Positions 6,415-34,735 of a DNA stretch of 34,735 nucleotides are shown one piece after another. Position numbers and translations under genes: made by a program. This DNA comes from a virus, in the IMG/VR virus record IMGVR_UViG_3300030329_002488, positions 1 through 34,735 of that record; one strand, written 5' to 3'. How positions within the stretch are numbered: the first letter of the stretch is position 1; every line of letters begins with the position of its first letter. A model generated the notes under the pieces. That model saw only the letters and a program-made list of their open reading frames with translations. It had not been told where the DNA came from and ran no database searches.

Positions 6415-7728
6415 ATGGCTAGAGAAATAAAATTAGCCCCTTCCTCTCAAGATGCTGAAGAAGCATTACTTGGGTGTATTATAGAAGGTGGAGAAAGAGA
6501 ACAAGAAGTAGCAATGGCTTGGATAAGGGATAATGATGCATTTTACAATACAGACAATAGAATAATATGGGAATCAATGGCAGAACTATATAAAGATAAA
6601 GTAGATATAGACTTTGTAACTTTATGCAACAAAGTAAAAGATATGCATGGAGATAGTAAAGCTTATTACATAACTGGATTAACTGAAAATATAACTAGTA
6701 AACAAAATGTAGAAGAATATGCAAGAATAGTATGGGAAAAATATATACAAAGAGAAACTGCTAAATCAGCAGAGGCTTTGTTAAATGCAAGTTATGAAGA
6801 TTATAAAAACGTAGGAAGCATATTAGAAAAGCATAGTAGATTGATTGATGAATTAAGACAAATACAACCATCTAAGCAAAGAGATATAACTGTATTAGTT
6901 GATGAAATGAGAGCAACAGTTGAAGAAGATTCTAATCTAATCCCTTTTAATCTTGGACATCTTGATACATTTGCAGGTGGAATGACTCGTAAAGAAATAA
7001 CTGTACTAGGCGGTAGGCCCGGCCATGGTAAAACAACTCTTGTAATAAATATTATTAGAGGGTTGATTGAACAAGGATATAGGGTAATGTTATTTAATCG
7101 AGAAATGAGCAATACAGAAATGTTGAAGAAAATGGTAGTAATGGAATCAAGTGGATTAAAATACGGAGATATAAGACGAAATGACCTATCTGAGACTAGT
7201 AAAGAAGAGTTTGAATTAGTATCTGAAAAGATGAAACATAACTATGAAAACTTTTTAATGTATGATAATGTAAGAACATTAGATGATTGCTTAAGAGAAA
7301 TAGCAAAACATAAACCTGATGTTGTTATAGATGATTACATACAATTAATAGATGTTCAAGGAGTAAAAGAAGGAAGAAGGTTTGAGATAGAAAAAATAAT
7401 GCAAGAGTATAAATGGATATGCAAACAAGAAAATTGCTCATCAATACTTGTATCACAATTAAATAGAGAAATAGAAAAACGATTTGACCCTAGACCTCGT
7501 ATGAGTGATTATGCAGAGTCAGGTGTAATCGAACAAACTGCTGAATCAGCTATGTTTGTATTCTATGGACATAATTTTGATAGTGAAAAGTTTAATCCAT
7601 ATAAGAGTGAAATCATAGTTTCTAAAAGTAGATACGGAAAGATAGGAACTCATGCAGTGGGATTTAATGGAGGCAGATGTAAATTCTACATGAACTCAAA
7701 TATGGCGGAAAAAGATAACATTGCGTAA
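6415..7728 (+). CDS. DnaB-type replicative DNA helicase
   Basis: This 437-residue protein has an N-terminal helical domain (SSQDAEEALLGCII from residue 10), then a RecA-like motor: Walker A GGRPGHGKTT (199-208), a post-Walker acidic segment (NREMS, 228-232), Walker B VVIDDYIQL (303-311), SILVSQLNREIEKR (343-356) and SDYAESGVIEQTAESAMFV (364-382). It would unwind the phage replication fork as a hexamer, 5' to 3'. Its length is close to bacterial DnaB (about 450-470). AAAAGGAGA precedes the ATG. No primase or helicase loader is visible in this window. Confidence 0.92.
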   Translation: MAREIKLAPSSQDAEEALLGCIIEGGEREQEVAMAWIRDNDAFYNTDNRIIWESMAELYKDKVDIDFVTLCNKVKDMHGDSKAYYITGLTENITSKQNVEEYARIVWEKYIQRETAKSAEALLNASYEDYKNVGSILEKHSRLIDELRQIQPSKQRDITVLVDEMRATVEEDSNLIPFNLGHLDTFAGGMTRKEITVLGGRPGHGKTTLVINIIRGLIEQGYRVMLFNREMSNTEMLKKMVVMESSGLKYGDIRRNDLSETSKEEFELVSEKMKHNYENFLMYDNVRTLDDCLREIAKHKPDVVIDDYIQLIDVQGVKEGRRFEIEKIMQEYKWICKQENCSSILVSQLNREIEKRFDPRPRMSDYAESGVIEQTAESAMFVFYGHNFDSEKFNPYKSEIIVSKSRYGKIGTHAVGFNGGRCKFYMNSNMAEKDNIA

Positions 7729-8708: not shown

Positions 8709-8747
8709 AAGTAGGAAGGGTTGGTATTCAACTAGCCCTTCTTACTT
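8709..8747. terminator. Bidirectional terminator between convergent operons
   Basis: AAGTAGGAAGGG (8709-8720) pairs with CCCTTCTTACTT (8736-8747) in a 12-base stem with a single G-T wobble. On the + strand it runs into CTTTTT, and on the - strand into TTTTAGC. It therefore looks able to stop both operons. The - strand stop codon of the 944-residue gene (8742-8744) lies inside the stem, so termination is placed exactly at the gene end. Confidence 0.75.
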
Positions 8748-11576
8748 CTTTTTATCCAATTCCCTCATGTACTTTAACATTCTATAATTAACAGGCTTAG
8801 CACCAGACTTCTTTTTTCTTCTTGTCCCTGTTACATCTAGCCATTTTTCACCAGCTATATCAAAAACAGGTTTTCCTTCATAAAGGTTAAATGGTAAATT
8901 AATTTTAGAAGTAGGATAGAATGATAGTTCATTAAGTCCAACTCTAAAAGAATTTAATATTGGGCTTCTATCGTTTTCAAATAACATTGGAATATGTCTA
9001 TTGTAAGCTCTTTTGCCAAATGAACTCATAGAAATAAGATTGTTAAGCATTTTAGTTCTGCTTCCTGTGTGTGTCAAGTCATGGTCATACTTATATCCTT
9101 GAACAGCATATAAATACTCATGCCAAGCTTCAGGTTCCGTTTCATTAATCATGCCTATAGACATTCCTAGGTCAATCATGTCCCCAAGAAGAGGTCCTCC
9201 AAATGTACTAATAATTGGCCCTTTGCCATAAAAAGCTTCATTAATTTTTTCTGGGTCATTAGAAAATAAAGTACCCCATTGTGAAATTCTTTTTGCTGTA
9301 TCATGCTCTACTAAATTATCAACATCTAATCCCATAACAATATAAGCAATTAAAGGAGCTAACCCATAAGCCATTCCCATTTTCATTGCTTGATGAACTC
9401 CTTGCATTTCACTAAAGCTTGCTCCAGACCTAACATCAGCGGAGGCTTCTCTATAAATAGATGTGTTTCTTTCTAAAAATTCCATCCCATAATGTTGAAA
9501 TTGAAACATAAATCTTGTTATATTTCCATATTTCCCTAATGATTTAATATCTCCTCTCATAAGTTTAGACTTAGCATAATCGGCATAATCAAAATGATTT
9601 GCTAAAACCATATTTTTTGCATAATTAATAGATATTTCATTAGCTCTAGTTTCTAAATTTATCTTTTTATTTGCCATTTGAGCCCTAAACTCAGAACTTT
9701 CCATTAATATTTTATGTAAAGTCCCATAGGCAACTTTGAAAGTATGTTTTCTATTCCAATTTTCAGCAGTCCTATGCAATACAGATGATTTTTTAGAAAC
9801 CCAACTCATGCCTTCTGCTATTTTATGACCAAAATGCTCTTCTTTATATTGTATATTGCCATCTTCATCCATATATCTAGACTTGAACATACTAGGCTTT
9901 TCTTTAATACCGCTTTCCAAAAGTTCTGGTGTAATTTCTTTAAATAAAAACCCAGCTTCATCTAGTATTTTATCAGCTTCTCTAACTCCACCTTCACCTT
10001 TAATAGAGTCAAAATAATTTACAGCTCCAATGCTCTTAGTAAATCCAAACCTTATATAATCAAGAGACCTTTGAGTCATGTTTCTAGCCGCTCCACGAAC
10101 ATTCCACCCAAGTTTAGATGTAAACTCAAAAGCAAGTAATGTTTTCATTGCTAATTGAGCAGATTCAGACATTCGAGTATCTCCATTAGCTGCTTTATGC
10201 ATATCCACAATAAAATCCGATACGTTGGTCATATACTGAGTTGGCCCTTTTTTACCACCTCTATACATTTTTAAAACATCAAGTCTAGCATCCATAAAGG
10301 CTTCTTCTAAAAAAGCAGAAGTATTAAAATGATTTATATCGTCTATATATCCTTTAACAACATCAAAAAAGTTTCTTGAATATTCTGGAGCATATTCTTG
10401 TTTTCTACTTTTTGCGTGATTAGTAACCCATTCATTTATTGATTGTATATCTTCTTTAAGAGTGGATGTTTTTCTTAATAATAAATCTTCACCAGAAGAA
10501 TCTAATTTTTTTAATCTTGGCAACAATCCTTCCATGAAAGTAGCATTTAAATCCCTTACATAATGAGGAAAAAACCCTTGTTCATATCTAGGCATTAACT
10601 CTCTATTTAATCTTTCTCTTGTTTCTTTTAATAATTTAACATTTTCACTTTCTATTCCTCTGTTAAATTTTAATCTTTTTATTTTACTATTGATAACAGA
10701 GTTTATTCCTTTTTTTAAATTATCATACTGATTATCCATCATGTTATTATATTTCATTAAAGGGTCTGCATATCTTGTGTCCATTCCTAATTCAGACATG
10801 ATTTTTTCTAAAAATTTAACTTCATTTATTTTTAATAAAGTTTCACCGTTATCAACTTTTTCAAGGAATTTTTTAGAATCTTTAATTCTCATAGGTCTAA
10901 ATTCACCGCTTTCAATTTTTTCCCTATATTTCATTAATATATCTGGCATGCCAGTTTCAATTAATACAATAAAATCATCAAATGCTTTTAATTTTTTATT
11001 GCTATCTACAAATTCTGATAATTCTTTTCTAGCAGCTGAAATTTCTCTATTGTTTTGTTTGTCAATAGCTTTAATAAGATTTAAATCTAATTTTCTTAAT
11101 TTTTTTATATCCCTATTAAAAATAGCTTTATCAATAGGCCCGGTTACTTTAGATATAACTTTAATCATATCTGTTATTTCTTTAAAGTCTTCAGCTGATT
11201 TCATTGTTCTGACTTTATCTTGACCAGATACATCTTGCAATCTTGAAAGCATTGAACCTATTGCTGGGTCTCTTTTACCAAAAGTAGTACCAGTCCAAAA
11301 CAACTTTGCAAAATCATTACTTGCAATGTCGCCTTGCTTTACTCTTTTATTTAATCTATATAAACTTTCAGTAAATTGTTTTATTTTTCCAGGTGTTAAA
11401 AGTTTTTCACCTTCATCTAATATAGCCCATTTTAATGGAACATAAAATTCAGATTCCCACATTTTAAACATAGCTGAATGAGGGTTTTTAAAATTACTTA
11501 AAGTTTCTTTATCCCCAAGCCATGTATTAACTGCATTTATTAATTGAGATTTTTTTGTTGCTTTATTACAATCCAT
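8742..11576 (-). CDS. Large internal virion / ejection protein (944 aa)
   Basis: The protein is mostly alpha-helical and charged in its first 450 residues, with many Lys/Glu heptad-like stretches. It then has helix-rich segments with aromatic residues (RFMFQFQHYGMEFLERN), a hydrophobic stretch (MGMAYGLAPLIAYIVMGLDV) and a glycine-rich part (GPIISTFGGPLLGDMIDLGM), as in internal proteins that enter the host envelope with the DNA. It is translated from a TAATG overlap after the 2989-residue gene and ends the late operon. I infer a subunit of the ejection apparatus; no enzyme motif is seen. Confidence 0.6.
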   Translation of the reverse strand: MDCNKATKKSQLINAVNTWLGDKETLSNFKNPHSAMFKMWESEFYVPLKWAILDEGEKLLTPGKIKQFTESLYRLNKRVKQGDIASNDFAKLFWTGTTFGKRDPAIGSMLSRLQDVSGQDKVRTMKSAEDFKEITDMIKVISKVTGPIDKAIFNRDIKKLRKLDLNLIKAIDKQNNREISAARKELSEFVDSNKKLKAFDDFIVLIETGMPDILMKYREKIESGEFRPMRIKDSKKFLEKVDNGETLLKINEVKFLEKIMSELGMDTRYADPLMKYNNMMDNQYDNLKKGINSVINSKIKRLKFNRGIESENVKLLKETRERLNRELMPRYEQGFFPHYVRDLNATFMEGLLPRLKKLDSSGEDLLLRKTSTLKEDIQSINEWVTNHAKSRKQEYAPEYSRNFFDVVKGYIDDINHFNTSAFLEEAFMDARLDVLKMYRGGKKGPTQYMTNVSDFIVDMHKAANGDTRMSESAQLAMKTLLAFEFTSKLGWNVRGAARNMTQRSLDYIRFGFTKSIGAVNYFDSIKGEGGVREADKILDEAGFLFKEITPELLESGIKEKPSMFKSRYMDEDGNIQYKEEHFGHKIAEGMSWVSKKSSVLHRTAENWNRKHTFKVAYGTLHKILMESSEFRAQMANKKINLETRANEISINYAKNMVLANHFDYADYAKSKLMRGDIKSLGKYGNITRFMFQFQHYGMEFLERNTSIYREASADVRSGASFSEMQGVHQAMKMGMAYGLAPLIAYIVMGLDVDNLVEHDTAKRISQWGTLFSNDPEKINEAFYGKGPIISTFGGPLLGDMIDLGMSIGMINETEPEAWHEYLYAVQGYKYDHDLTHTGSRTKMLNNLISMSSFGKRAYNRHIPMLFENDRSPILNSFRVGLNELSFYPTSKINLPFNLYEGKPVFDIAGEKWLDVTGTRRKKKSGAKPVNYRMLKYMRELDKKK

Positions 11577-14500
11577 TATTTAATACACCCACTCATTTCA
11601 GCCCAATCTTCAGCATCTTTATTTGTATGGTCAAGTAATCTTCCGTCATGAGCTGTGTTGAGTTCTCTTTCAAGTTGTTGCAATTTATTATATTTTGAAA
11701 TTAAACTAGATTCATTTACTTCTAATTTAAGACCTTTATCAGCAGCTGCTCTTTGTAAATATTTAAATCCTTTTGATAATTTAAAAGAATCATGTTGTTG
11801 TATTGGTACAACAGATTTCGATTCCGATACTGCATTTATTTCAGTTTGAACCATTTTTATATACATATTGTCTAATTTAAGCCTTCTCTCTATAAAATCA
11901 TAAGGGTCTAAGTAAACATTTGTAGCTAAGTCTCTATTTAATAAATCTATTTCATCAAGAAATTTTTGAAATCCAATAGAAAACTCATCACCAGCTAAAT
12001 TTGCTGTTTCTTGATAAAAATCAAGAACTGAATTATTCATTATGTTTAATGTATGTCTTGGAAACATATTCCTTGTCCAATTTATATCAGTATAAGAACT
12101 TAGCTTTCTTTCTAAATAAGAATCAAATTTACCTAATCCATATTGTCTTACATCATTTTCTCTTGAAGTAAAAAGATTGTGATTTCTATCAAAATAGCCT
12201 CTATAATGATTTTCTGATTCAATTAATTTTGTTAATAATATTTGAGAAGGTATTTTTATATCATCAGCTTCACCAACAAGTTTTCTAGCTATTCTTATGG
12301 GGTTTTCTTCAGATGAAAAATCTTTAAAAGCAATTTCAGTAAGAACTCTTATCCCCATTCTAAATCTTTTTGAATCAACATATGGAATAGGAACTACTCT
12401 ATTATTAAAAACTCCAATTTTTTTTCTATTTAATGAAGGAGACATAAAAGCTAACATAAATTCTAATCCATATTGCTCAGTTTTTTCTTTTAAAAATTCT
12501 ACTTGCCATTTATAAAAATCATCAGTATCATATCTTTCTAATTGCTTTTTTAATTCTTTATCTTTAATTACTGTTTTAGCTCCAAATTCAAGTATGTCTT
12601 TTATGCTTCCATGGTCTCCATAAATTTTTCTTCTTAAATCTTTAAACATTGCCAAATCATCTTTAGCATTACCTTCAAGCATTTGATAAAAATTATCAAA
12701 TTTATAGCCACCTATTAATTCAGATTTTAATAAAGAATGTATAGAATGATAATATATTGTTGATTCTGTTAATTCTTTTCCTTCTGCAATTAAATCTAAA
12801 AATTCATATTTTTGAGGGTCTTTTATATTTACTCTTCTTCCATATTCAGTATTTATTTCTGATTGAAGTTTATTTATAACATATTTTAAAGATTTAATTT
12901 TTTTATTTTTCCATTCTTGTTTGTATTTAGACCTAGCAATTTCGTTTATTTTTCTACTTAAATAAACAACACTTCCAACTTTTTTATTATGGCTTAAAAC
13001 TGCAGTGGTTAATTTTTCATTATGTTTGTCAGCTGATTCTTTATACGATTCCATTATCATATCATTATACCAATCATCAAGCTGTATTTTATCTTCTCCT
13101 AGTAATCTAAAATCTTGTTTTTCTTCAAAATGATTTTTTCTAGCTAATTGAACAATTAATTGGTCTATATATGTTCCATTTGGATTTGTTGTTTCTTCAC
13201 TAATAAATCTTTCTGCATTATTACGAACATATTCAAAAGGGTCTTTGTTTAAGAATGTTCTTCTATACCATTTCCCTTTTTGTGGTTCTTTTTCAGTAAC
13301 AGCTCCAAATATTTTTCTTAACTCTTTATAATCATTTGGATTTAATTTTCTTTCTCTAGTTAACTTTCTATACACTTTATTTTGAATGTCTTTATGAAAA
13401 TCTATAAATCCCTGACCAGCTTGCATAAAATCATCATAAGACATTCTTCTAACATCAGCCCCATCATAAACATCTTTACCAGTTGCTTGTAATATTGTTT
13501 TATTATAATTATCCATTAAGGATTTAATAATTTCTTTTTCAGCTTTAGTTAATTCAATATTTACATCTTCTGTCCACTTACCATCTTTTTTAACCATTCT
13601 TGAAAATATTCTTATTCTTTTATTATTAGAAGCTCCTTTTTCTTGGATGTCTTTTCTTTGATTAAATGATAAATTATCTGGTCTTTCTGATTGCGTTATT
13701 AATGGAAATAAGAAATTATCTTTCCAATTAAATATATCATTTGCAATATTTGGATTTAATTTATTTTTACCATCAACAACATATTGCATTTCTAAAGCAC
13801 TTCGTATAAAAAAATCTATGTTTTTACTATCAATGGTAATTACTCTTTCATCACCATTTTTACTATCTGTTGTTCTAAATAAAATTCCAGGCCCATCAAC
13901 AGTCCCGTCTTGATTTTCTCTTCTAAAATTTGACCAAGCTTCTGATTCTTCTTTATCAGCTGTCCAATTTTTATTAGAAAGCATATCTAAATAATTTAAT
14001 TGTCTTGGAGTTTTTTGAACAATGCCTATCATTTTTTTATAAGCATCTGCATTGCCCATAGATTCTATAATATTTTCACTCTGAGTTTCTGTATCTTGTA
14101 AAAATGTAAACGAAGCTGGAGTTTTCCATTTTTTTGGGTCTATTCCTTGAACCCAATATTTATTAGTTCTCTTAATATGGTCAAACATATAATCATTATG
14201 AGCAAAGAAATAATCTACCTTATCAGCATCATAATCACCTTCATATATATTTACTATATCAAGACTATTAACCATTGTAGAATTACCATATCCCTTATCT
14301 AAAAACCCAGCCAATCCAAGCAATGTAATATCATTAGGTCTTGTTCTTGGATTTCTTCTTGAAATAATACCAATTTGATATTTTCTACCAGTTGCTTTGT
14401 TAGCATCTTTTAAAAAGTTATGTACGCTTCCAAGTGTGGAATTTTGAACAGATAAAGATAGTTCGTTCTTTTTATCTGATTCACCAACTCTTTCTTTATA

Positions 14501-17500
14501 ATCAGCAAGAAATTCATCAACAGTCATAATTCTTTCATTATCAACTATTCTTATAGTTCTTCCTTCAAGGTCTCCAAGTTTTGTATCTTGTTCGTGAAAT
14601 GGAAGAGCTAACTCACCTCTCATTAACATATTGCCTTGTTTATCTACCAATGTAGGCAATAATCTATGATTTCTCATGTTTCCATTTCTATCTAAAAATC
14701 TCTGAGCATTTTGTATTATATAAGATTGCCCACCATATCTATTACTTGTTACATTGCTTAATTCACCATGCCTTCCAGAACTTCTATTTGTAATAGACCT
14801 AGTGTTATTTATTAATCTATCTATAAATGTATTAAAAATTTTATTTTTTGTTTGATTGTCACTAAAGCTCATAGGATTAGCATTAGCATGATGCTCTAAG
14901 AAAAGATACATATTGTTAATTGTTTGTAAAGAAGAAATACCATCATCATTTTGCATTTGTCCATTTGGTAACAATTCATCCATCATAAATTCCCTCATAG
15001 CGACAGAACTTCCAACAATATCTTCTATTGATTGTATCGCAAAGGATATATCTTTTTGCATTTCTTGTATTTTTAAATATCCTTCTTCAGCATTATGATA
15101 ATTAGCATCAGCTGGTGAATCTTTAGCAGATGTAATAGAAGCATCTTTTTCTGGTTTTAATCCTATTGCATCTATATCTACAAATCTAATTTGATTTGGT
15201 TTTAAAATATTTTTACTAGTTGTTTTTAATTTATCAAGGGATATATTTAATATAGATTCATCATCTTTGTTTGAATTTCCATCAATATATTTTTCATCAT
15301 ATACCTTAGCTCCAGATTTTGTAAGTAAAATATCTAAATTATTTGCTTTAAGAAAATTTTCTAATCTTGGGTCATGTATAAACAACGTTTTACCAAGTAA
15401 AAGTGTTTTACCTTCTCCCATAGATGAAATAACTGGTTTTATTGCATTTTTAGAATAAGGATTATGCCCCATTAATGTATGATATTCCATCATAGCATCT
15501 TCTGTTAAGAAAGATATACTATCAAATGCACTAGCATCTTCGTGAGCCGTTCCTATGTTTTCAAAAGACCAATTTTCTAAATCGTAAATATCTTTATATT
15601 TTTCTATAATTTGCTCAACTTCATTTCTTATATTTGCATTATTATCATCATCCCAAATAGCAATAGAATATTTACCTTTCTTATTATATATTCTATCTTT
15701 TAGAAGATTACCAGCTTCATCACCATCATTAATTAACAACCTTGCTTCTGCTAATGATAAATAATAATCAGAATCACCTCGTATAAAATTTTTTGTATTT
15801 ACAAGTTTTACCCTACTAATAACTTTATCAATTTCATCAGCGTCATTATTATTTAGAATTTCTTTAAGTTTTGTATTAGAATCACTTCTTAACATTCTTT
15901 CGACTACTAACAATCTTGCTATTGATTCATAATCGTAATCTGCAGAATACCTATCTTGGTCTGTGTCTTTTATTCTTTCTAATAAAGCTTCTATATTTGT
16001 TGTATCTTCATATAAATTTTTATTTCTTTCGTAAAAATTATTAAACTCTTCTGCTAGAATTTTTCTATCTTGCCCTGTTATAATTATACTATCAAACTCT
16101 GGAACAAGATTTAATCTAATTAAAGGGTCTTTTCCAATAGAAACAACATCATCTTGAACTCCTAAAGCTTCAAAAACTTCATCTTCTTTATCTTTTATTC
16201 TGTTGTCTTTTAATATACCATCTACTATTGAATGATTTAGCAAATCATTTATTATTTGATTTTCTACTATCTTTACTTCATTTCTCATCCATTCTGGAAA
16301 ATTTTCAGCTTTAGAAGTAAGATTAACAATCCTAGGTTCCATTCTTGAATTTTCTGGATTAAAAGGTTTTATTAATACATTATTATCAAATAAATAATGT
16401 TTAATTTTTAAATCTCTAAATAATTCATATATTGGATTAGTTTGATGAAATTCAGGCTTGTCTGTAAATTTTATACCAGTACCAGCTACTTCAACAACTG
16501 GGACTTCTACTTGCTTTCTTCTTCCAAAAAATACTTGAGTAGCATCTTCTAATATTTGATTTCTTAATCTTCCTCCCATACTTTCATATGGTATAGTTTC
16601 TTGTTTTTTATTTCCATCTGCATCTGTAATAATTCTTGTCGCAACTAAATTATTAATTAAATTAGATATAGCATTTCCTTTAAGAATGGCATTTGGATTT
16701 TCTATTTCTGGAAAGTTTTCTGTTAATTCATCAAATTTCTTTATTTGATTTTCTTGACTCATTAAAGAATAATCTCTGTATTCTTTAAAATTTCCATCTG
16801 AATCATTAATTATTACTTTATATTTTCTAAAAAATTCACCAACACTCATTGATGGATTTGCAACATGGTCACTAGAATCATTTAAAAATCTTGGTTTTGA
16901 TATTTGTTTTTGTTCAGAAATTTTTTGATTAATAAAGCCTTCTGTGTATCCAAATTGTCTTAATGATTTATCAACTTTTTTCCAATAATCTTCAGTAAGT
17001 ATTTCTTTTTCTTCTACCTCAATTCTTCCACTATCTTCATTTATTTTTAATACACCTAAATCAAAAAGCATATTTTGAATTTTTGCTTGATTAATTTCTG
17101 GGGCAAGTGCAATATAATTTTTAATTCTATCTGAATAAAATCCCAAACCATTTTGAGTAAGTTTTTCAAGAACAGTGCCAAGTGCAACATTTGAATCATA
17201 AGTATTTCTACCTAATGCAGATTTCTTCATTTCAGCTTGTAAAATAGGAATTTCCATAACTCCGACATCAATAGTTTCTTTTGATATTTCCACTAATCCA
17301 CCAGACTTATTTGCAATTTCAGATATAAAATTATTGTATTTCGTTGAAAAATCATCATTACCAAAAATTTCAATTCTTTTTAAAATAAAATTATTTGAAG
17401 TACCCTCTGGTTTTAAATTATTTTCTCCAAATCCAGAAGAAACAGCTTGTAAAACAAAATCTGTTTGACCTCCAGATAATCTTGAATCTTTAAATCTTTT

Positions 17501-20500
17501 AGTGTTAAGTATATTGATAAGGTATTCATAATAAAAACTATCTAATTTTTTTACATCTAATCCAAAACCTTGCAAAGTTTTCTTTAATCTAACAAATCCA
17601 TCTTTATTTACAATTGTATTGCTAGATGTTAATTTGTCTGGAATATTTATAGAAGATTGCATTGTTAATACTTGACCTAATACTCTTTTCATAGAAGCTT
17701 GTTCTTCTTTTGAGACATCAGCTTTAACATCTTTAGAAAATTCTATTTGTTTTACACTTTTTATAATATTCCCATCTTTATCTATAAGACCAGCTCCTTG
17801 CAAAGCTCCTAGCAATTTTTGTCTTCCATTAAATTCTGGACTAAATATTTCTTGAATACTTTTAGAAACTGAAATTGCTTTGTTTTTCACCATACTCGGT
17901 AAATAATCCATGTAATCAGAATATCTAAATTCCCTAGAAACAAGGTCTTTCATTTCAAATGTTTTATTTACAGATTGTTCTGAATTTCTAACTATTTCAT
18001 ATATTTTTCTTAAAGATGCTTCATTTTTTAGTTCCATTACATTTGCATTAGAACTTGTTTGAATAGCCTCTAATCCACTTGATAAAGATTTAATAATAGA
18101 TTGAAGACTCATTTTCATTTTTTCAACTTCATTTACAGCGTCATCTCCAGAACCAAGAAATTCAAAATCACCTTTTCTAATTTTATCTTTTAATTTTTTG
18201 TCTATTATTATTGTTTGTGGAGTAATAATCTTATCACCAGTAGTTGTTGTAAAGAACCCAGCTAAGTCATCAAATTCACTTTCTTTATCAGCTACATCAA
18301 CAATTTTTTTAATAATACCAAGCATTTCATTTTCAAAATTTTCAGTTGCTTTTATTGTTGATTCTTCTTGCAAATCACGAAGTCCTTTCATGTCATCTTT
18401 CTTTATACCATGAACTTCTTCATACTTTTTAAGCATTGCATTTGCTTCTTTAACTGTTATTGCATCTAATGTTTTAGCAGTGTGGAAATCAGAGTTCATT
18501 GCAGTAACAAGTTCTTGCAATATTCCGTAATCTTGACCTTCTATTTCCATAGAAATTTTTACACTTTTTTCACCAGCAGGGACTGCAAAAGCATCCATTT
18601 CTCTACCTTCAGCTTCATCGTTTGTAGCCAATCCATTTTCAACTAACCAATCTTGATATTCTTTTTTTCTTGAAGCTTTGTCAAATCTAGACCTAGCAAT
18701 TGGAAAATTTTCATCTATATAAAAATTAGAATTTTTCCATTCTGGGTCTCCACCTAATATTTTAATACCTTCACGAATCCTATTTATATCCGTATTCATG
18801 TCCCATTTAGAAACATTGTCCTTTCTTTGGGTGTATGCTCCTATCATTAAATTTGTGAATAAATCCCAACCATTATAATCTTCGCCATATCCTCCTAAAA
18901 ATTCACCAGTGTTCCAAGCATCTTGGGCTATCATACCTGCGTTAAAAACCATACCTCCATATAACATTCTAGGCCATTCTTGTGCAAAACTTCTAAATGG
19001 TTCTTTTAAAGATTCACTTAATAAATCCCTAGCATATTGATTTTTTTCTTTTAAAAGATAATCAGATACTTCTTTTTTAAAATTACCACCAAGAGTCTCC
19101 GTTAATTCTTTATGCAATGATTTAATCCCATCTTCAGCATTTTCATAAGGAGTTCCACCTTGAGTTAAATCTATTTCTTTTTTATACTTTCCTTTACCAA
19201 ATCCAACATGATGTGGCCTTGGTACTTTATTAGTGCTATTTCTCCAAGCGTGATTTCCAAAATAAAATAAATCTTTAGCAAGTTGGCGCCTTGTTTTTCC
19301 CTCATATGGATTTGATTGTCTCCAAGTTCTTATAGCTGATGCAAAATCAACTCTTGAATTTGCCATTTTACCTAATGGTTTAAATATAGCAGCTCCACCT
19401 GACAATCCTACACCAGTTAACATTCCAAATAAAGTATCTTCAAAAAGTTGTCGACTAGAAAAAACATCAGAAAAAGATTGACCTTGCTCTCTTGCATAGT
19501 TCCATTGATTAGAGAGAGAAAATGCTCCATCAATAAAACTATATACAAAAGCATCATTTAATAATTGACCTACAAATCTACCTTTTCTTCCAGTTCCATA
19601 CATTACTTGACCTAATTGAAGCATGTTTTGTATTGGAACTCCTTTTTTCATCATTGTGTCAAACATACCTCTCATTATAGAAGCTTCAGCTTGAGTTATT
19701 TTACCTAAAGCCATTTGAGATTCTATTAATACTCCAGATTCTTCTTTTAACGCTTTATTAAATGTTTTTTGCTTTAAAATAGGGTGCATTCTACTTTTAG
19801 AAGCGACTTGAGTATATTTTGAAGTTCCTAATTTTATAGCATTTTTAGATAAACCTTCTTTAGCTGCCCATTGCTCACCAGCCTTAGTTATTTGTTTTGT
19901 TGATTCAGTAGAGGCTTTATCTCCTATTTTTTTCTTAAACACTTTTTTAGCAACTGGAAGAGTTGCTTTTGTAACAATATTTCCAGCTACTTTAAAAGGA
20001 AGACCTTTAACAAAACCTGCAAATGAACCTATGGCTGAACTAACTTTACCAGCAGCTAGTTCTTTTCTAGCTTCAGTTCTTTCTCTATATTCTTCTAATT
20101 CTTCGGGGTCTACTCTTCCCAAAGTTTGTTCTAATAGAAAATCTTTTGTTCCAAATGTTGCAGTATCTACAAAAGCATCTAAACCTGCAAAAATAATCGC
20201 ATCAAGACTTTCTCCAGTTTTATAAAGTAAAGATTTTTCTTCTTGAATTGGAGAATCTTCTTCTTGAAGAATATCAGCTTGTTCCATAATGTCAAGCATT
20301 GTTTGTGGATTCAAATCATTAGGTAAAGGTGGTTTTTCTTGATTTGGTTGGTTTGAATTAGAATAACTAATACCAGTTGGAGTTGCTAACGTTCTTGAAT
20401 TTCCACCTATTGCTTTTTTAGCTCTTGATGTATCTATCTCGCTATAATAATTTATTATTTCTTCTGGAGTCCAAGAAGGAGTTATAGTCTTATCTTCATC

Positions 20501-20545
20501 GTCAAACAATGAATTATATAGCGATTTTTGAGGATTTAAAGGCAT
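11576..20545 (-). CDS. Giant ejection protein with crAss-like virion RNA polymerase motifs (2989 aa)
   Basis: The N-terminal 500 residues carry glycine- and alanine-rich amphipathic stretches (SLDAIIFAGLDAFVDTATFG; FGMLTGVGLSGGAAIFKPLG) like ejection proteins. Further in, SGAKVYDEK (K1747, K1752) is a candidate for the lysine-bearing beta-like barrel. Then IGIISRRNPRTRPND (2058-2072), about 30 residues, and GDYDADKVDYFFAH (2103-2116) follow the order of the beta-prime barrel in two-barrel RNA polymerases: Rx-x-P, then DxDxD with D2104, D2106, D2108. crAss-like virion polymerases have the same DxDxDK arrangement. The probable role is DNA-directed RNA synthesis from injected DNA. The gene starts TAATG after the 397-residue gene; its size is comparable to the N4 virion polymerase (about 3500), but no T7/N4-type motif is seen. 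The polymerase call rests on motif reading only. Confidence 0.68.
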   Translation of the reverse strand: MPLNPQKSLYNSLFDDEDKTITPSWTPEEIINYYSEIDTSRAKKAIGGNSRTLATPTGISYSNSNQPNQEKPPLPNDLNPQTMLDIMEQADILQEEDSPIQEEKSLLYKTGESLDAIIFAGLDAFVDTATFGTKDFLLEQTLGRVDPEELEEYRERTEARKELAAGKVSSAIGSFAGFVKGLPFKVAGNIVTKATLPVAKKVFKKKIGDKASTESTKQITKAGEQWAAKEGLSKNAIKLGTSKYTQVASKSRMHPILKQKTFNKALKEESGVLIESQMALGKITQAEASIMRGMFDTMMKKGVPIQNMLQLGQVMYGTGRKGRFVGQLLNDAFVYSFIDGAFSLSNQWNYAREQGQSFSDVFSSRQLFEDTLFGMLTGVGLSGGAAIFKPLGKMANSRVDFASAIRTWRQSNPYEGKTRRQLAKDLFYFGNHAWRNSTNKVPRPHHVGFGKGKYKKEIDLTQGGTPYENAEDGIKSLHKELTETLGGNFKKEVSDYLLKEKNQYARDLLSESLKEPFRSFAQEWPRMLYGGMVFNAGMIAQDAWNTGEFLGGYGEDYNGWDLFTNLMIGAYTQRKDNVSKWDMNTDINRIREGIKILGGDPEWKNSNFYIDENFPIARSRFDKASRKKEYQDWLVENGLATNDEAEGREMDAFAVPAGEKSVKISMEIEGQDYGILQELVTAMNSDFHTAKTLDAITVKEANAMLKKYEEVHGIKKDDMKGLRDLQEESTIKATENFENEMLGIIKKIVDVADKESEFDDLAGFFTTTTGDKIITPQTIIIDKKLKDKIRKGDFEFLGSGDDAVNEVEKMKMSLQSIIKSLSSGLEAIQTSSNANVMELKNEASLRKIYEIVRNSEQSVNKTFEMKDLVSREFRYSDYMDYLPSMVKNKAISVSKSIQEIFSPEFNGRQKLLGALQGAGLIDKDGNIIKSVKQIEFSKDVKADVSKEEQASMKRVLGQVLTMQSSINIPDKLTSSNTIVNKDGFVRLKKTLQGFGLDVKKLDSFYYEYLINILNTKRFKDSRLSGGQTDFVLQAVSSGFGENNLKPEGTSNNFILKRIEIFGNDDFSTKYNNFISEIANKSGGLVEISKETIDVGVMEIPILQAEMKKSALGRNTYDSNVALGTVLEKLTQNGLGFYSDRIKNYIALAPEINQAKIQNMLFDLGVLKINEDSGRIEVEEKEILTEDYWKKVDKSLRQFGYTEGFINQKISEQKQISKPRFLNDSSDHVANPSMSVGEFFRKYKVIINDSDGNFKEYRDYSLMSQENQIKKFDELTENFPEIENPNAILKGNAISNLINNLVATRIITDADGNKKQETIPYESMGGRLRNQILEDATQVFFGRRKQVEVPVVEVAGTGIKFTDKPEFHQTNPIYELFRDLKIKHYLFDNNVLIKPFNPENSRMEPRIVNLTSKAENFPEWMRNEVKIVENQIINDLLNHSIVDGILKDNRIKDKEDEVFEALGVQDDVVSIGKDPLIRLNLVPEFDSIIITGQDRKILAEEFNNFYERNKNLYEDTTNIEALLERIKDTDQDRYSADYDYESIARLLVVERMLRSDSNTKLKEILNNNDADEIDKVISRVKLVNTKNFIRGDSDYYLSLAEARLLINDGDEAGNLLKDRIYNKKGKYSIAIWDDDNNANIRNEVEQIIEKYKDIYDLENWSFENIGTAHEDASAFDSISFLTEDAMMEYHTLMGHNPYSKNAIKPVISSMGEGKTLLLGKTLFIHDPRLENFLKANNLDILLTKSGAKVYDEKYIDGNSNKDDESILNISLDKLKTTSKNILKPNQIRFVDIDAIGLKPEKDASITSAKDSPADANYHNAEEGYLKIQEMQKDISFAIQSIEDIVGSSVAMREFMMDELLPNGQMQNDDGISSLQTINNMYLFLEHHANANPMSFSDNQTKNKIFNTFIDRLINNTRSITNRSSGRHGELSNVTSNRYGGQSYIIQNAQRFLDRNGNMRNHRLLPTLVDKQGNMLMRGELALPFHEQDTKLGDLEGRTIRIVDNERIMTVDEFLADYKERVGESDKKNELSLSVQNSTLGSVHNFLKDANKATGRKYQIGIISRRNPRTRPNDITLLGLAGFLDKGYGNSTMVNSLDIVNIYEGDYDADKVDYFFAHNDYMFDHIKRTNKYWVQGIDPKKWKTPASFTFLQDTETQSENIIESMGNADAYKKMIGIVQKTPRQLNYLDMLSNKNWTADKEESEAWSNFRRENQDGTVDGPGILFRTTDSKNGDERVITIDSKNIDFFIRSALEMQYVVDGKNKLNPNIANDIFNWKDNFLFPLITQSERPDNLSFNQRKDIQEKGASNNKRIRIFSRMVKKDGKWTEDVNIELTKAEKEIIKSLMDNYNKTILQATGKDVYDGADVRRMSYDDFMQAGQGFIDFHKDIQNKVYRKLTRERKLNPNDYKELRKIFGAVTEKEPQKGKWYRRTFLNKDPFEYVRNNAERFISEETTNPNGTYIDQLIVQLARKNHFEEKQDFRLLGEDKIQLDDWYNDMIMESYKESADKHNEKLTTAVLSHNKKVGSVVYLSRKINEIARSKYKQEWKNKKIKSLKYVINKLQSEINTEYGRRVNIKDPQKYEFLDLIAEGKELTESTIYYHSIHSLLKSELIGGYKFDNFYQMLEGNAKDDLAMFKDLRRKIYGDHGSIKDILEFGAKTVIKDKELKKQLERYDTDDFYKWQVEFLKEKTEQYGLEFMLAFMSPSLNRKKIGVFNNRVVPIPYVDSKRFRMGIRVLTEIAFKDFSSEENPIRIARKLVGEADDIKIPSQILLTKLIESENHYRGYFDRNHNLFTSRENDVRQYGLGKFDSYLERKLSSYTDINWTRNMFPRHTLNIMNNSVLDFYQETANLAGDEFSIGFQKFLDEIDLLNRDLATNVYLDPYDFIERRLKLDNMYIKMVQTEINAVSESKSVVPIQQHDSFKLSKGFKYLQRAAADKGLKLEVNESSLISKYNKLQQLERELNTAHDGRLLDHTNKDAEDWAEMSGCIK

Positions 20546-21738
20546 TAAATACCAGAACGTATTCTATTAAGAACTCTTTTTTGAATCCTTATTTGAGAAA
20601 CAATATCATCTTTTCTATCATCATACTCATCAATTAATTCTTTTTGTTTATCTGTTGGATTCTTAGCTTGCATAGCTTTATTATATAAAACAGCTAATTG
20701 GTCGAGAGATTTCTCACTATTTAAAATACTTTGTTGAATAGTTTTCATTCCTTGAGCCCCCATATAAGAAGGTGGAATATTATCAACATCTTCACCTCCC
20801 CTAATAACTGCATCTAGTAATTGAGCATCTTGAGGTGATATTTTTATATTAGAAACTTTATTTATATCAAATTTATAATCCCCAGTTCCAGCTTCAATTC
20901 TTTCATTTTGTATATTTTTTTCTATTTCTTTTGCTCTTAATAATTCTACACCTAAAGATTGAAATCTTGTTAATGTAGGTTCATCAAAACCAGCCCTAAA
21001 TATTTTATTATATTTTTTTTCTTCAGGCGTAAGTTTTTTCATTCTTTCATTTAAATTTTTACCGAATCTTGGACTGCCTAATTTCATACTAGCGCTAACA
21101 TAATTAATTAACATATTTTCAAAATCATCAGTTTTTCCTTCAGTTTGAACCATTCCAAAAATACTATTTTGTATTTCTTTACTAAATCTTTTCCTATCTT
21201 TACTTGATGTATTATTTTTTAAATTTTTATACAAAGAACTTTTTTCAAAAGTACCTGTTATACCACTTCCTTCTTGAGCCTGTATAATAGATTCTTGTAT
21301 TCCAAAAGCTCCAATAACATTTTCCATAATTTCTGCATGATTTCTTTCAGCGATTGTATCTAATTCATCCAACCTAGCATCAAATGTTTTTCTTCTAGCT
21401 TCTTCTGTTTGAGCTGTAATTTTGTCTATTTCAGCTAAAGTTGCTTTTCTTTGTAATTCAAGTTGTTCTGGTTGGGCTAAATATTCTTTTTGAGTCACTT
21501 CAGCTTCCAAACTTCTTTTGGTTAATGCTCTATTTGCTCTAACTTCTTTAGCTAATTCAGTACCTCCAATTCCTAATTGCGCTTCTTCTAATTGAAAAGA
21601 CCTATCTAAATTTCTTTGGTCCTGAGCCATTTTGAGCATAGAAAGAGATTCAGACACTTTTGTTTGTTCACGCTGTTGTCTATATTGTAATATTCTATTT
21701 AGTGATGCTAATACATCAGCTCCGTAATAATTTGCCAT
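20545..21738 (-). CDS. Coiled-coil internal virion protein (397 aa)
   Basis: Residues 10-140 form long charged helices (LNRILQYRQQREQTKVSESL; LELQRKATLAEIDKITAQTE), typical of coiled-coil core or ejection proteins. The middle is richer in glycine, and the C-terminal part is again helical, ending in QIRIQKRVLNRIRSGI. It lies between the gp14-like gene and the giant polymerase-like gene, the position of the T7 gp15-type core protein, so I infer an internal virion role. I see no Shine-Dalgarno sequence before the ATG, and its stop overlaps the next start as TAATG. Confidence 0.55.
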   Translation of the reverse strand: MANYYGADVLASLNRILQYRQQREQTKVSESLSMLKMAQDQRNLDRSFQLEEAQLGIGGTELAKEVRANRALTKRSLEAEVTQKEYLAQPEQLELQRKATLAEIDKITAQTEEARRKTFDARLDELDTIAERNHAEIMENVIGAFGIQESIIQAQEGSGITGTFEKSSLYKNLKNNTSSKDRKRFSKEIQNSIFGMVQTEGKTDDFENMLINYVSASMKLGSPRFGKNLNERMKKLTPEEKKYNKIFRAGFDEPTLTRFQSLGVELLRAKEIEKNIQNERIEAGTGDYKFDINKVSNIKISPQDAQLLDAVIRGGEDVDNIPPSYMGAQGMKTIQQSILNSEKSLDQLAVLYNKAMQAKNPTDKQKELIDEYDDRKDDIVSQIRIQKRVLNRIRSGI

Positions 21739-30343: not shown

Positions 30344-30661
30344 TCAATGTCTTCCGTTTATCCTGCTCATAGAGCCTTTTAATTCTGATACTTGGTTATC
30401 TAAGTCATTTATTTCTTTAGTAATAGCGTCAAATTTCCTATCTAATTTGTCATCAGATGTATTCCACCTACCAATTAATTTTATAATCATGCCTTCCATA
30501 TTTTCTAAAGTTTCTGATTGACCTCTATTTTCTGTTTTTAAATCTTCTAAGACCTCTTGTTGCTTAGCTGCTTTATTTGACATTTGCACTACTAAATATA
30601 CAAACATAGCACCAACAACTCCAATCATTCCTGCTTCGCCATATAATTGTAAAAAATCCAC
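30344..30661 (-). CDS. BhlA/UviB-type holin candidate (105 aa)
   Basis: One N-terminal transmembrane segment (EAGMIGVVGAMFVYLVVQMS, about residues 9-28) is followed by a long charged coiled coil (KQQEVLEDLKTENRGQSETL; KEINDLDNQVSELKGSM). This is the layout of BhlA/UviB-like holins, and also of some inner-membrane spanins. It starts with GTG in a TAGTG overlap. It sits in a group of small membrane genes, which supports a lysis role. No endolysin is recognised beside it. Confidence 0.5.
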   Translation of the reverse strand: MDFLQLYGEAGMIGVVGAMFVYLVVQMSNKAAKQQEVLEDLKTENRGQSETLENMEGMIIKLIGRWNTSDDKLDRKFDAITKEINDLDNQVSELKGSMSRINGRH

Positions 30662-32359: not shown

Positions 32360-34735
32360 TTATTTAAGTTTTGCTTCTAATTCTGTTACTTTTGCAGATA
32401 ATTCTTGTACTGCTTTGACAAGTGGGACTACAAGTCTTGAATAATCAATACCTTCGATTTTACTATCTTCTTGAACTGAATGAATATCGCAATCAACATT
32501 ATACTTATCTAAGCAAGCCTTCACTTCTTGAGCTATAAATCCTATCTTCTTGTCTTTATCGTCAATATCTCTTGAAGAATCAATATTTTTAAACCAAGCC
32601 TGTTCTTTCTTTAGGTCATTATCCCATTCTTCAGATTTTCTCATATTAAAAGTGACAGGATTAAGCTCATTTACAAAATTTAATCCAAGAGTAGTTTTTT
32701 CAACATTTTTCTTTATTCGAGCATCTGAAGAACTATCAATATTTGTACACCATACTTTAGCACCACTATCAAACGCCATATATACATGATCCACATTAGA
32801 ATCTCCAAGTGTTACTGTATTATTTCCTTTGGTAACTGTACCATATCCTATAGCTGTTGCATTTTGCGTTGTTCCAGCAGAAGTATCTGCTCCTGAACCT
32901 ATAATTGTATTTTTTTCACCAGAGGAAATTGTATCACCACTTGCATTTCCTACGCAAGTATTATCATCGCCTGTAAGTAATGTTCCAGAATTATGTCCGA
33001 TACATACATTTTGTGCTGTAGACGCTGAGTTACTTCCAACATCCATTACATAATTTCCAATACCAATATTTTGGTTTGCATTTGCATCTGTGGTCATTCC
33101 ATCAAGAGCTTGGTATCCAATTGCAATATTGTCATGTCCTTCAGTCATATCATTGAGGGCTTGGTATCCAATCGCTAAATTCCTTGCTCCAGTTGTCAAA
33201 GCAGATAAAGATTCAAAACCAATGCCTATCGCTCCATCTGCATCAGTTGTCAAAGACCCATTACCAGCATTTTTTCCAATAATTACTGCTTTATTAACAG
33301 CGGTAGAATTATATAAACAGTTTGTTCCAATTGCCACATTATCATCACCGTCTGTTAATGATATACCAGAAGCATTTCCAATAGCAATGTTACTGCCTCC
33401 AGTATTAACATCCTCAAGAGTCTTATATCCTAAAGCAACATTTCCATCTCCTGTGGTAAGACTCATTAAAGCCTCACTTCCAACGGCTACATTTTTAAGA
33501 GCGCCATCTAACGCACCTCTCATTATATCGTTACCTATTGCAACATTATCATCACAAGCCGCATTTGTCCATGTTCCAGAAGCAACTTGAAAACCTATAA
33601 ATACATTTCGAGAAGAAGCTTCGCTATTATCACCTGCATCTGTGTCAAGCATAACTTGATATCCTATTGCGACATTTTCTACACCAGTGCCATGAACTTT
33701 CATCGCTTCATAGCCTATACCAACATTTTTACTATTGTCGTGACCACTTTTTCCTGTACCTGCCTGTTTCCCTATGTACACATTTCCTGTTCCTTGAGCA
33801 TTATGATAACCAGCTTCTACTCCGATTCCAACATTACCCATTACAGCAGAGCTTCCTTTGTTTTGAGTATATAATGCTTGGTATCCAATAGCTACGGAAT
33901 GACTTCCTTGTGTTTCAGCTGTTAATGCTTGATAACCAAATACTGTATTATATCCAGAATCTGTAAGAGCATCTGCTGATTGATATCCAATCGCTGTATT
34001 TCCAGTTCCAGATGTCAATGTCGCAAGAGCAGATGTCCCTATCGCAACAGTACCATCTTGGGTTGCGGCTCCTCTCATAGCTTCACTACCTATTACAACA
34101 CAATAATCTGCACCATCAACAGCTCCGTCAAATGCTTGATGCCCTATTGCAACATTATCTCTTTCTGCATCTGCTTGGTCTGCGACATTTTGCCCTATAT
34201 AAATATTATTAGTTGCTGATGTTCCAGCTAATCCAGCATTCACTCCTATCATTACATTTGAATCACCAGAATTAAGAGCAGTTCCAGCCTTATGTCCTAA
34301 TAGGACATTATTTAAAGTATCAGTAGCAACCGAACTACCTGCCAAATATCCTAGTATAGTATTACCACTTGTACTATCTACTCCACCATCACCACCAGCA
34401 TCATTATTACTTAGTGAGATTCTGGAGTTGGTATCAAGTTTAAATCTAGCACCTGAACCATCTGTATAAAATGTAATCGTATCTGCCGCTCCACCTTCAT
34501 TACCAGCATTTGTTTGGATAGATAAAGCACCGTCTGAATATCCTATTGACGCATAATTGTCATCAGGAGCGATATCAGTTAGTTTTAATGTTGGATGCGC
34601 TCCAGCTATATCTGCTAAATCACCATTGACTGTAAGTGTTCCAGACATTGTTACATTACCATCAGATGCAATTCTCATTCTTTCAGTGTAAGCCGCTGAA
34701 GTATTCGTACCAAAGACCAGTTCTGTACTGTTATT
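32360..34735 (-). CDS. Tail fibre with S74 intramolecular chaperone, 5' end cut by window
   Basis: The frame stays open through the right edge, so at least 791 residues are encoded and the N-terminal anchor is missing. An internal ATG at 34678 is not the true start, since the preceding residues (TELVFGTNTSAAYTERM) are typical fibre sequence. The middle is a long series of YadA-head-like repeats. The C-terminal ~120 residues are a peptidase S74 chaperone: SSDARIKKNVEKT (catalytic Ser near 32728) and KKIGFIAQEVKACL, ending in a coiled coil (VKAVQELSAKVTELEAKLK). S74 domains trimerise the fibre and then cut themselves off. The protein is the likely host-binding fibre. Confidence 0.85.
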   Translation of the reverse strand, partial: NNSTELVFGTNTSAAYTERMRIASDGNVTMSGTLTVNGDLADIAGAHPTLKLTDIAPDDNYASIGYSDGALSIQTNAGNEGGAADTITFYTDGSGARFKLDTNSRISLSNNDAGGDGGVDSTSGNTILGYLAGSSVATDTLNNVLLGHKAGTALNSGDSNVMIGVNAGLAGTSATNNIYIGQNVADQADAERDNVAIGHQAFDGAVDGADYCVVIGSEAMRGAATQDGTVAIGTSALATLTSGTGNTAIGYQSADALTDSGYNTVFGYQALTAETQGSHSVAIGYQALYTQNKGSSAVMGNVGIGVEAGYHNAQGTGNVYIGKQAGTGKSGHDNSKNVGIGYEAMKVHGTGVENVAIGYQVMLDTDAGDNSEASSRNVFIGFQVASGTWTNAACDDNVAIGNDIMRGALDGALKNVAVGSEALMSLTTGDGNVALGYKTLEDVNTGGSNIAIGNASGISLTDGDDNVAIGTNCLYNSTAVNKAVIIGKNAGNGSLTTDADGAIGIGFESLSALTTGARNLAIGYQALNDMTEGHDNIAIGYQALDGMTTDANANQNIGIGNYVMDVGSNSASTAQNVCIGHNSGTLLTGDDNTCVGNASGDTISSGEKNTIIGSGADTSAGTTQNATAIGYGTVTKGNNTVTLGDSNVDHVYMAFDSGAKVWCTNIDSSSDARIKKNVEKTTLGLNFVNELNPVTFNMRKSEEWDNDLKKEQAWFKNIDSSRDIDDKDKKIGFIAQEVKACLDKYNVDCDIHSVQEDSKIEGIDYSRLVVPLVKAVQELSAKVTELEAKLK
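32810..34330 (-). repeat. YadA-head-like repeats in the tail fibre
   Basis: The encoded protein repeats a unit of about 14-28 residues with the core N-x-A-I-G-x-x-A-x: examples are NVAIGYQVM, NTAIGYQSAD, SVAIGYQAL, NLAIGYQALN, NIAIGYQALD and NVALGYKTL. Units are divergent at the protein level and more so in DNA, which suggests an old expansion with diversifying loops. The pattern builds a trimeric left-handed beta-roll, here about 500 residues long. Confidence 0.75.

Follow-up and report, generated by a model that had tools for sequence, protein, structure and literature searches.

Results

A conserved motif block in a giant phage protein

Does this phage bring its own RNA polymerase into the cell? 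The question is raised by a viral record of 34,735 bases and 31% GC (the window, i.e. the whole stretch of DNA that was analysed), in which one open reading frame codes for a giant protein of 2989 residues (Table 1). A preliminary description had noticed in this protein an RxP element followed by a relaxed DxDxD and a lysine, and had read them as the signature of a two-barrel RNA polymerase of the crAss-like type. Both motifs were confirmed at the residues given there, as was the gap of 30 residues between RRNPRTRPND and GDYDADKVDYFFAH. The bare RxP/DxDxD pattern is weak evidence. The protein contains 226 aspartates and two DxDxD sites and, in 2000 shuffles of its sequence, DxDxD appeared in 69%, DxDxDK in 11% and an RxP followed by DxDxD within 15-60 residues in 6.5%.

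Table 1. Position of the giant gene, of its segments and of its two neighbours in the window.
Feature	Window coordinates	Strand	Basis
Giant protein, 2989 aa, helical N-terminal half and predicted two-barrel RNA polymerase core	11576..20545	-	ORF, model, Foldseek
Modelled RNA polymerase core, residues 1330-2500	13046..16558	-	AlphaFold2; top PDB match phi14:2 gp66
Probable barrel-B (beta-type) segment, residues 1702-1747, K1703/K1719/K1747 invariant	15305..15442	-	48/48 rows
RYGGQ segment, residues 1936-1940	14726..14740	-	G1938 and G1939 in at least 92% of 48 rows
RRNPRTRPND, RxP element of barrel A, residues 2063-2072	14330..14359	-	R2064/P2066 pair with gp66 R1322/P1324
GDYDADKVDYFFAH, probable metal-binding DxDxD of barrel A, residues 2103-2116	14198..14239	-	Aligned with gp66 D1361/D1363/D1365
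Candidate bridge helix, 38 residues, 2152-2189	13979..14092	-	DSSP on model (H823-860); role from position only
Helical N-terminal part, residues 1-1190	16976..20545	-	AlphaFold2; without confident structural match
944-aa protein directly downstream, conserved neighbour	8742..11576	-	Large ORF there in relatives
397-aa protein directly upstream, same block	20545..21738	-	No significant family match

A search with the 95-residue motif region showed a relative to be encoded on 44 viral contigs, at 49-100% identity over the query. A scan with the core alignment, for which GKTLF and PRTRPND served as bait, gave 77 distinct loci (best 80 of 87 relatives), and a second round from distant members, with a bait that was partly the triad, gave the best 80 of 94 relatives, 11 of them on new contigs. 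At least 88 contigs with a relative were thus obtained across both scans; 87 cover the motif, and D-x-D-x-D is kept in all 87 of these listed contigs (76 + 11). In the core-alignment scan EGDYDxD was present in 76/77 contigs, L126 ending before that point, and all 11 further contigs of the second round carry the triad. Because the bait of the former scan was GKTLF/PRTRPND, its 76 contigs were unselected for the triad; the other 11 may have been selected for it. The aspartates D2104, D2106 and D2108, on whose conservation the preliminary description had staked its reading, are therefore retained in homologues. Its relaxed DxDxD followed by a lysine stands only in the first part, since the residue after the triad is E, A, M or T in some relatives.

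For the residue analysis, 48 non-redundant rows were drawn from the sequences with EGDYDxD, L126 and the near-identical and short rows being removed. The invariant positions include R1578, D1675, K1703, P1704, G1718, K1719, T1720, D1738, K1747 and G1977, and also P2066, T2068, P2070, D2072, G2087, E2102-D2106 and D2108. The conserved lysines lie in a barrel-like region that precedes the triad, in agreement with the lysine-bearing barrel expected earlier, and K1703, K1719 and K1747 are still at least 90% conserved in a set of 59 rows reaching 21-45% identity to the window. The motif block, conserved across relatives, is the most conserved part of the giant protein and is therefore not a chance string. 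A fortuitous or surface-exposed DxDxD in a tail or ejection protein would be compatible with the frequency of this motif in shuffled sequences, but its presence in 87/87 listed contigs covering the site, together with the fold match to two-barrel polymerases reported below, leaves this explanation a negligible probability. It could also be argued that a two-barrel fold has decayed or been repurposed, that its polymerase function is lost and that it is kept as a structural ejection protein, since distant relatives vary in the lysine that follows DxDxD and in part of the RxP element. This is very unlikely, however, as the triad and the barrel-B lysines are kept in relatives at 21-45% identity and a structural role does not need them.

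Predicted fold of the C-terminal half

A template-free AlphaFold2 model of residues 1330-2500, computed from 59 sequences, reached a pLDDT of 87.2 and a pTM of 0.87, with a mean pLDDT of 77 in the block of the DxDxD loop. When this model was compared with the PDB by Foldseek, phi14:2 gp66 (6vr4) came first (E 4.4e-11), followed by QDE-1 (1.5e-6) and RDR2 (1.5e-4). Two-barrel RNA polymerases make up all seven PDB matches at E <= 0.001; subunits of the multisubunit enzymes appear from E 0.003 on. The TM-score of 6vr4 is modest (0.30 by query length). In VIA-align, 6vr4 obtained a Z of 11.2 over 737 residues with an rmsd of 5.1, and RDR2, P74 gp62, QDE-1 and P32 gp64 obtained 10.7, 10.6, 10.2 and 8.4, respectively; since 6vr4, RDR2 and P74 gp62 tie in this score, it does not single out a nearest sister. 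The preliminary description had proposed a structure prediction to be compared with gp66 and QDE-1. Both head the PDB matches, so its two-barrel RNA polymerase interpretation is supported and appears largely right. Beyond DxDxD the model has a helix of 38 residues that, by its position, could be a bridge helix.

Residues 1-1190, submitted to the same treatment as a control, were predicted to be mostly helical (pLDDT 74.6, pTM 0.50) and gave no PDB match at E <= 0.001 with Foldseek. Resemblances of this N-terminal half to helical proteins such as ABC transporters (Z up to 8.1, mostly over 65-150 residues) were discarded as being in the chance range for helical models.

The two-barrel fold is shared by RNA-dependent RNA polymerases and by the DNA polymerase PolD, and QDE-1 and plant RDR2 come right behind gp66 among the fold matches. 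An enzyme of either kind is nevertheless highly improbable here: the best Foldseek match, gp66, is called DNA-dependent in the title of its PDB entry, and PolD was absent among the 50 rows listed, an absence that does not exclude it. The T7-type (N4) virion polymerase was likewise absent among the fold matches listed, which excludes nothing. For the modelled core we infer catalytic activity and DNA as the template.

In BFVD, seven unnamed viral proteins stood on top (E 2.5e-49 to 3.2e-12) and crAss-like phage proteins came next. Between the two closest matches and the crAss-like phage proteins rank A0A516LSI3, A0A516LHK8, A0A516LW39, A0A516MLC8 and A0A516LUR1, with E values of 5e-15 to 3e-12 against the model. 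These five proteins possibly represent further undescribed families of two-barrel polymerases.

A possible sequence relation to phi14:2 gp66

Direct sequence comparison did not reveal a relation to gp66. In tblastn searches of the phage collection, the whole giant protein, the 95-residue motif region and two distant relatives gave no match, and the core gave chance matches only, the listed ones at E 4; neither tblastn nor HMMER provided a link to gp66. In Pfam, PHROGs and NCBIfam nothing significant was found for the giant protein, the weak rows (best E 0.0061) looking like chance, and against PDB sequences the best E was 1 for the single sequence and 0.11 for the profile, whose best rows were caspases. 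None of these libraries (Pfam, PHROGs, NCBIfam, PDB sequences) thus ties the sequence of the giant protein to a polymerase. Among GTDB genomes, 62 stretches matched the search pattern and none of them encodes a relative, so that no prophage copy was detected by the pattern search.

For the profile comparison, the gp66-like set consisted of phi14:2 gp66 and 10 usable of 11 further loci, i.e. 11 rows; L058 was left out of the 12 crAss-like sequences because of its interrupted frame without the motif. Invariant in these 11 rows are, among others, K1012, K1027, K1065, K1119, R1322, P1324, G1345, G1359 and D1361/D1363/D1365, and gp66 R894 is found in 10/11. HHalign of the 59 rows against these 11 placed DxDxD on DxDxD with a score of 40.9 and an HHalign probability of only 11.5%. 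The controls gave at most 26.0 for 200 column shuffles and 27.8 for the reversed profile; the second and third alternative alignments, at 32.1 and 27.8, are just above and equal to this reversed control. With shallower profiles (22 vs 9 rows) the score fell to 28.6 and the probability to 1.3%, the reversed control being nearly as high.

Along the best path, 13 of the 28 inspected positions are identical and 15 are not. Nine of the 13 are conserved in at least 10/11 crAss-like rows, namely R1578/R894, K1703/K1012, K1747/K1065, R2064/R1322, P2066/P1324, G2087/G1345 and the three aspartates. On the same path K1719 falls one position off K1027 and K1800 misses K1119, and D1675 and G1693, which are 18 residues apart like D962 and G980, miss these two. 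The spacings in the giant protein and in gp66 are close, with 16 vs 15 residues from lysine to lysine and 40 vs 39 from the arginine to the first aspartate. When the profile alignment is taken together with the fold, common descent with gp66 is the simplest account.

Gene context and phage lineage

One strand of the window carries genes of early type, coding for a Cas4-like exonuclease, a DNA methyltransferase, a DnaB helicase and a Holliday junction resolvase, and the opposite strand carries a run of large genes ending in a tail spike or fibre. No terminase, portal or head gene was recognised in the window. An open reading frame of more than 500 codons lies directly downstream of the giant one in 61 of the 66 loci where the latter ends inside the locus. 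The 944-aa protein of the window, which may be another internal virion protein, shows between residues 588 and 704 a weak NCBIfam match (E 0.0067, far below the cut-off) to phage proteins with a PLxRFG domain. A relation of this downstream protein (40 rows) to phi14:2 gp65, the RNA polymerase associated protein, was not seen (HHalign probability 0.25%). A possible Rz-like spanin is encoded at 30344-30661 on the minus strand (phrog_739, E 0.0003).

Two relatives, G009 (54,059 bases) and G002 (54,531 bases), were used for comparison of the gene set. The giant gene shares its strand with terminase and portal in G009 and, in G002, with the genes for portal and head protein; the primase-helicase of G002 and the DnaB of the window are on the strand opposite to it. 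As a DNA repair exonuclease gene of G009 stands on the structural strand, the strands divide functions imperfectly, and the strand argument for packaging is slightly weakened. Packaging of the giant protein is suggested by the location of its gene on the structural-gene strand, and the label "virion protein" in the preliminary description has to be taken as inference and not as observation.

Under a different explanation, the protein would be an active two-barrel RNA polymerase that is made in the infected cell for middle or late genes, like P23-45 gp64, and that is not part of the virion. Phage polymerases of this non-virion kind exist, P23-45 gp64 being one (PMC10770324), and the P74 gp62 and P32 gp64 structures match the core model (Z 10.6 and 8.4). 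The giant gene, on the other hand, stands among structural genes, is fused to about 1300 mostly helical residues and is followed by a conserved large gene, and the polymerase proteins of crAss-like phages are virion cargo (PMC10172136). We therefore judge a non-virion enzyme rather unlikely, and virion cargo the better reading.

The preliminary description had also stated that the gene set does not look crAss-like. This is borne out by the relatives, in which terminase, portal and head protein belong to other families than in phi14:2, and a crAss-like phage was rejected on this ground. In PHROGs, the terminase of G009 belongs to phrog_38, the portal of both relatives to phrog_156 and the head protein to phrog_1328 (E 1.3e-10 in G002, only 0.011 in G009). 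The phi14:2 families, phrog_6681 for terminase, phrog_6547 for portal and phrog_11589 for the major head protein, are not those of these two relatives. Eleven of the largest relatives are contigs of 48-56 kb, none shown complete. The portal of G002 is weakly matched in 16 phage records, and in four of these the match is annotated as a P22-like portal. Because portals of relatives resemble those annotated P22-like, the comparison suggests a lineage with a short tail.

Direct repeats occur in the early region, 17 families in the window and 40 in G009 (20 listed). They are two-copy except one, and several in G009 contain ribosome-binding sites. No shared promoter was seen among these repeats of the window and G009, for which 20 of the 40 families were listed. 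The DnaB of the window has 437 residues (6415-7728, plus strand), and the distant relatives L145 (19983-21734, minus strand) and L146 (21029-22762, minus strand) code, opposite the giant gene, for a protein of 577-583 residues matching both primase and DnaB families. Judged by these sequences, the lineage may have exchanged one replication gene for another.

Host

Bacteroidota are the hosts of crAss-like phages, and Shine-Dalgarno sites are largely absent in Bacteroidota. In 13 stretches of the present lineage, Shine-Dalgarno-like sites precede 36-100% of the open reading frames, compared with 9-17% of internal ATGs; the window has them before 11 of 23 open reading frames and L145 before 13 of 13. 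Strong use was seen in the window, L125, L129, L131, L143, L145, L163 and others. In two stretches of phi14:2 they precede 1/27 and 2/13 open reading frames vs 14% of internal ATGs. As such sites are common in the lineage and largely missing from Bacteroidota, its host probably lies outside that group.

The tail spike of the window (32360-34678, minus strand) ends in an endosialidase-type chaperone (Peptidase_S74). Among the top rows, the tail proteins that it resembles most are those of a Roseobacter phage, a Methylophilales phage and the Pelagibacter phages HTVC111P and HTVC112P. Since phages exchange tail fibres, this likeness is a hint to the host only.

Discussion

Proposed identity and mechanism

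Taking fold, conservation and gene position together, we consider it likely that the giant protein has as its C-terminal half a single-chain two-barrel RNA polymerase of the gp66/QDE-1 type, most likely carried as virion cargo and transcribing early genes. We read it as representing a family, so far unannotated, in which a single-chain two-barrel RNA polymerase is joined to a large, helical N-terminal part, and the lineage in which it occurs is non-crAss by its packaging and head genes, as seen in two relatives.

In the proposed mechanism, the aspartates of GDYDADK would hold the catalytic magnesium in barrel A, and the conserved lysines between about 1703 and 1747 would contribute from barrel B. 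To judge from gene position and by analogy, the polymerase would be packed in the head as internal cargo and would enter the cell with the DNA or ahead of it. The early genes (nuclease, methyltransferase, DnaB, resolvase) could then be transcribed without the host polymerase, while the helical N-terminal half, again by analogy, might serve packaging or passage. A more detailed and only tentative version, which we regard as possible but doubtful, would place the protein in a widespread lineage with P22-like portals, outside Crassvirales and Bacteroidota hosts; in this giant ejection protein, the C-terminal half would be the injected polymerase and the helical N-terminal half would line the envelope channel, and the polymerase, tethered at the entry pore, would read the incoming genome.

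If the identification as a polymerase carried into the cell is true, host-independent early transcription would be more widespread than annotation suggests, and this polymerase type would be present in a further lineage that sequence searches have missed and that differs in its gene set and probably in its hosts. The clade of the eukaryotic RNA-interference polymerases would gain a branch as well, which bears on their origin. Residues 1330-2500, with their high predicted fold confidence, constitute a well-defined target for a test.

Comparison with known systems

Single-chain two-barrel RNA polymerases that enter the cell with a phage are described, in the literature consulted, in two groups: the crAss-like phages, and P23-45 with its relatives. 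In crAss001, polymerase proteins are carried as cargo and their entry is thought to involve partial unfolding (PMC10172136). The crAss-like enzyme had earlier been linked to the eukaryotic RNA-interference polymerases (PMC7886860). The likeness of the giant protein to phi14:2 gp66 extends from the best Foldseek match and the single chain to an R-x-P about 40 residues before DxDxDK, upstream lysines in the same order, and a large gene adjoining other large genes within the run of virion genes. It differs from gp66 by the lack of any tblastn or HMMER match and by its length (2989 vs 2180 residues), and the genome of phi14:2 has 100 kb, compared with 48-56 kb for the largest relative contigs, none of which is shown complete. 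The large virion protein of Flavobacterium phage Fpv1 (L057), a gp66-like polymerase, belongs to a phage whose taxonomy line is without Crassvirales; it was however found by tblastn from gp66, whereas the giant protein is not linked by tblastn to either.

P23-45 offers two points of comparison. Its gp96 is a two-barrel polymerase inside a giant virion protein, where it is fused to the tail tape measure and transcribes pre-early genes (PMC10770324). The polymerase of gp96 is N-terminal to its partner, whereas here it would be C-terminal, and the relatives of the present protein have portals like those annotated P22-like, suggesting a short tail. For gp64, the likeness is that of its close homologue P74 gp62, which scores Z 10.6 against the core model. 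The RNA-interference polymerases QDE-1 and plant RDR2 share the two-barrel fold (Z 10.2 and 10.7) but are enzymes of eukaryotic cells, and their Foldseek E values are weaker than that of gp66.

By titles and the beginnings of abstracts in the literature searched, no paper describes the family, although an earlier mention is possible, for instance among the 23 two-barrel families of PMC10770324. The type of enzyme is thus a known one, and the family, the fusion partner and the phage lineage appear to be undescribed.
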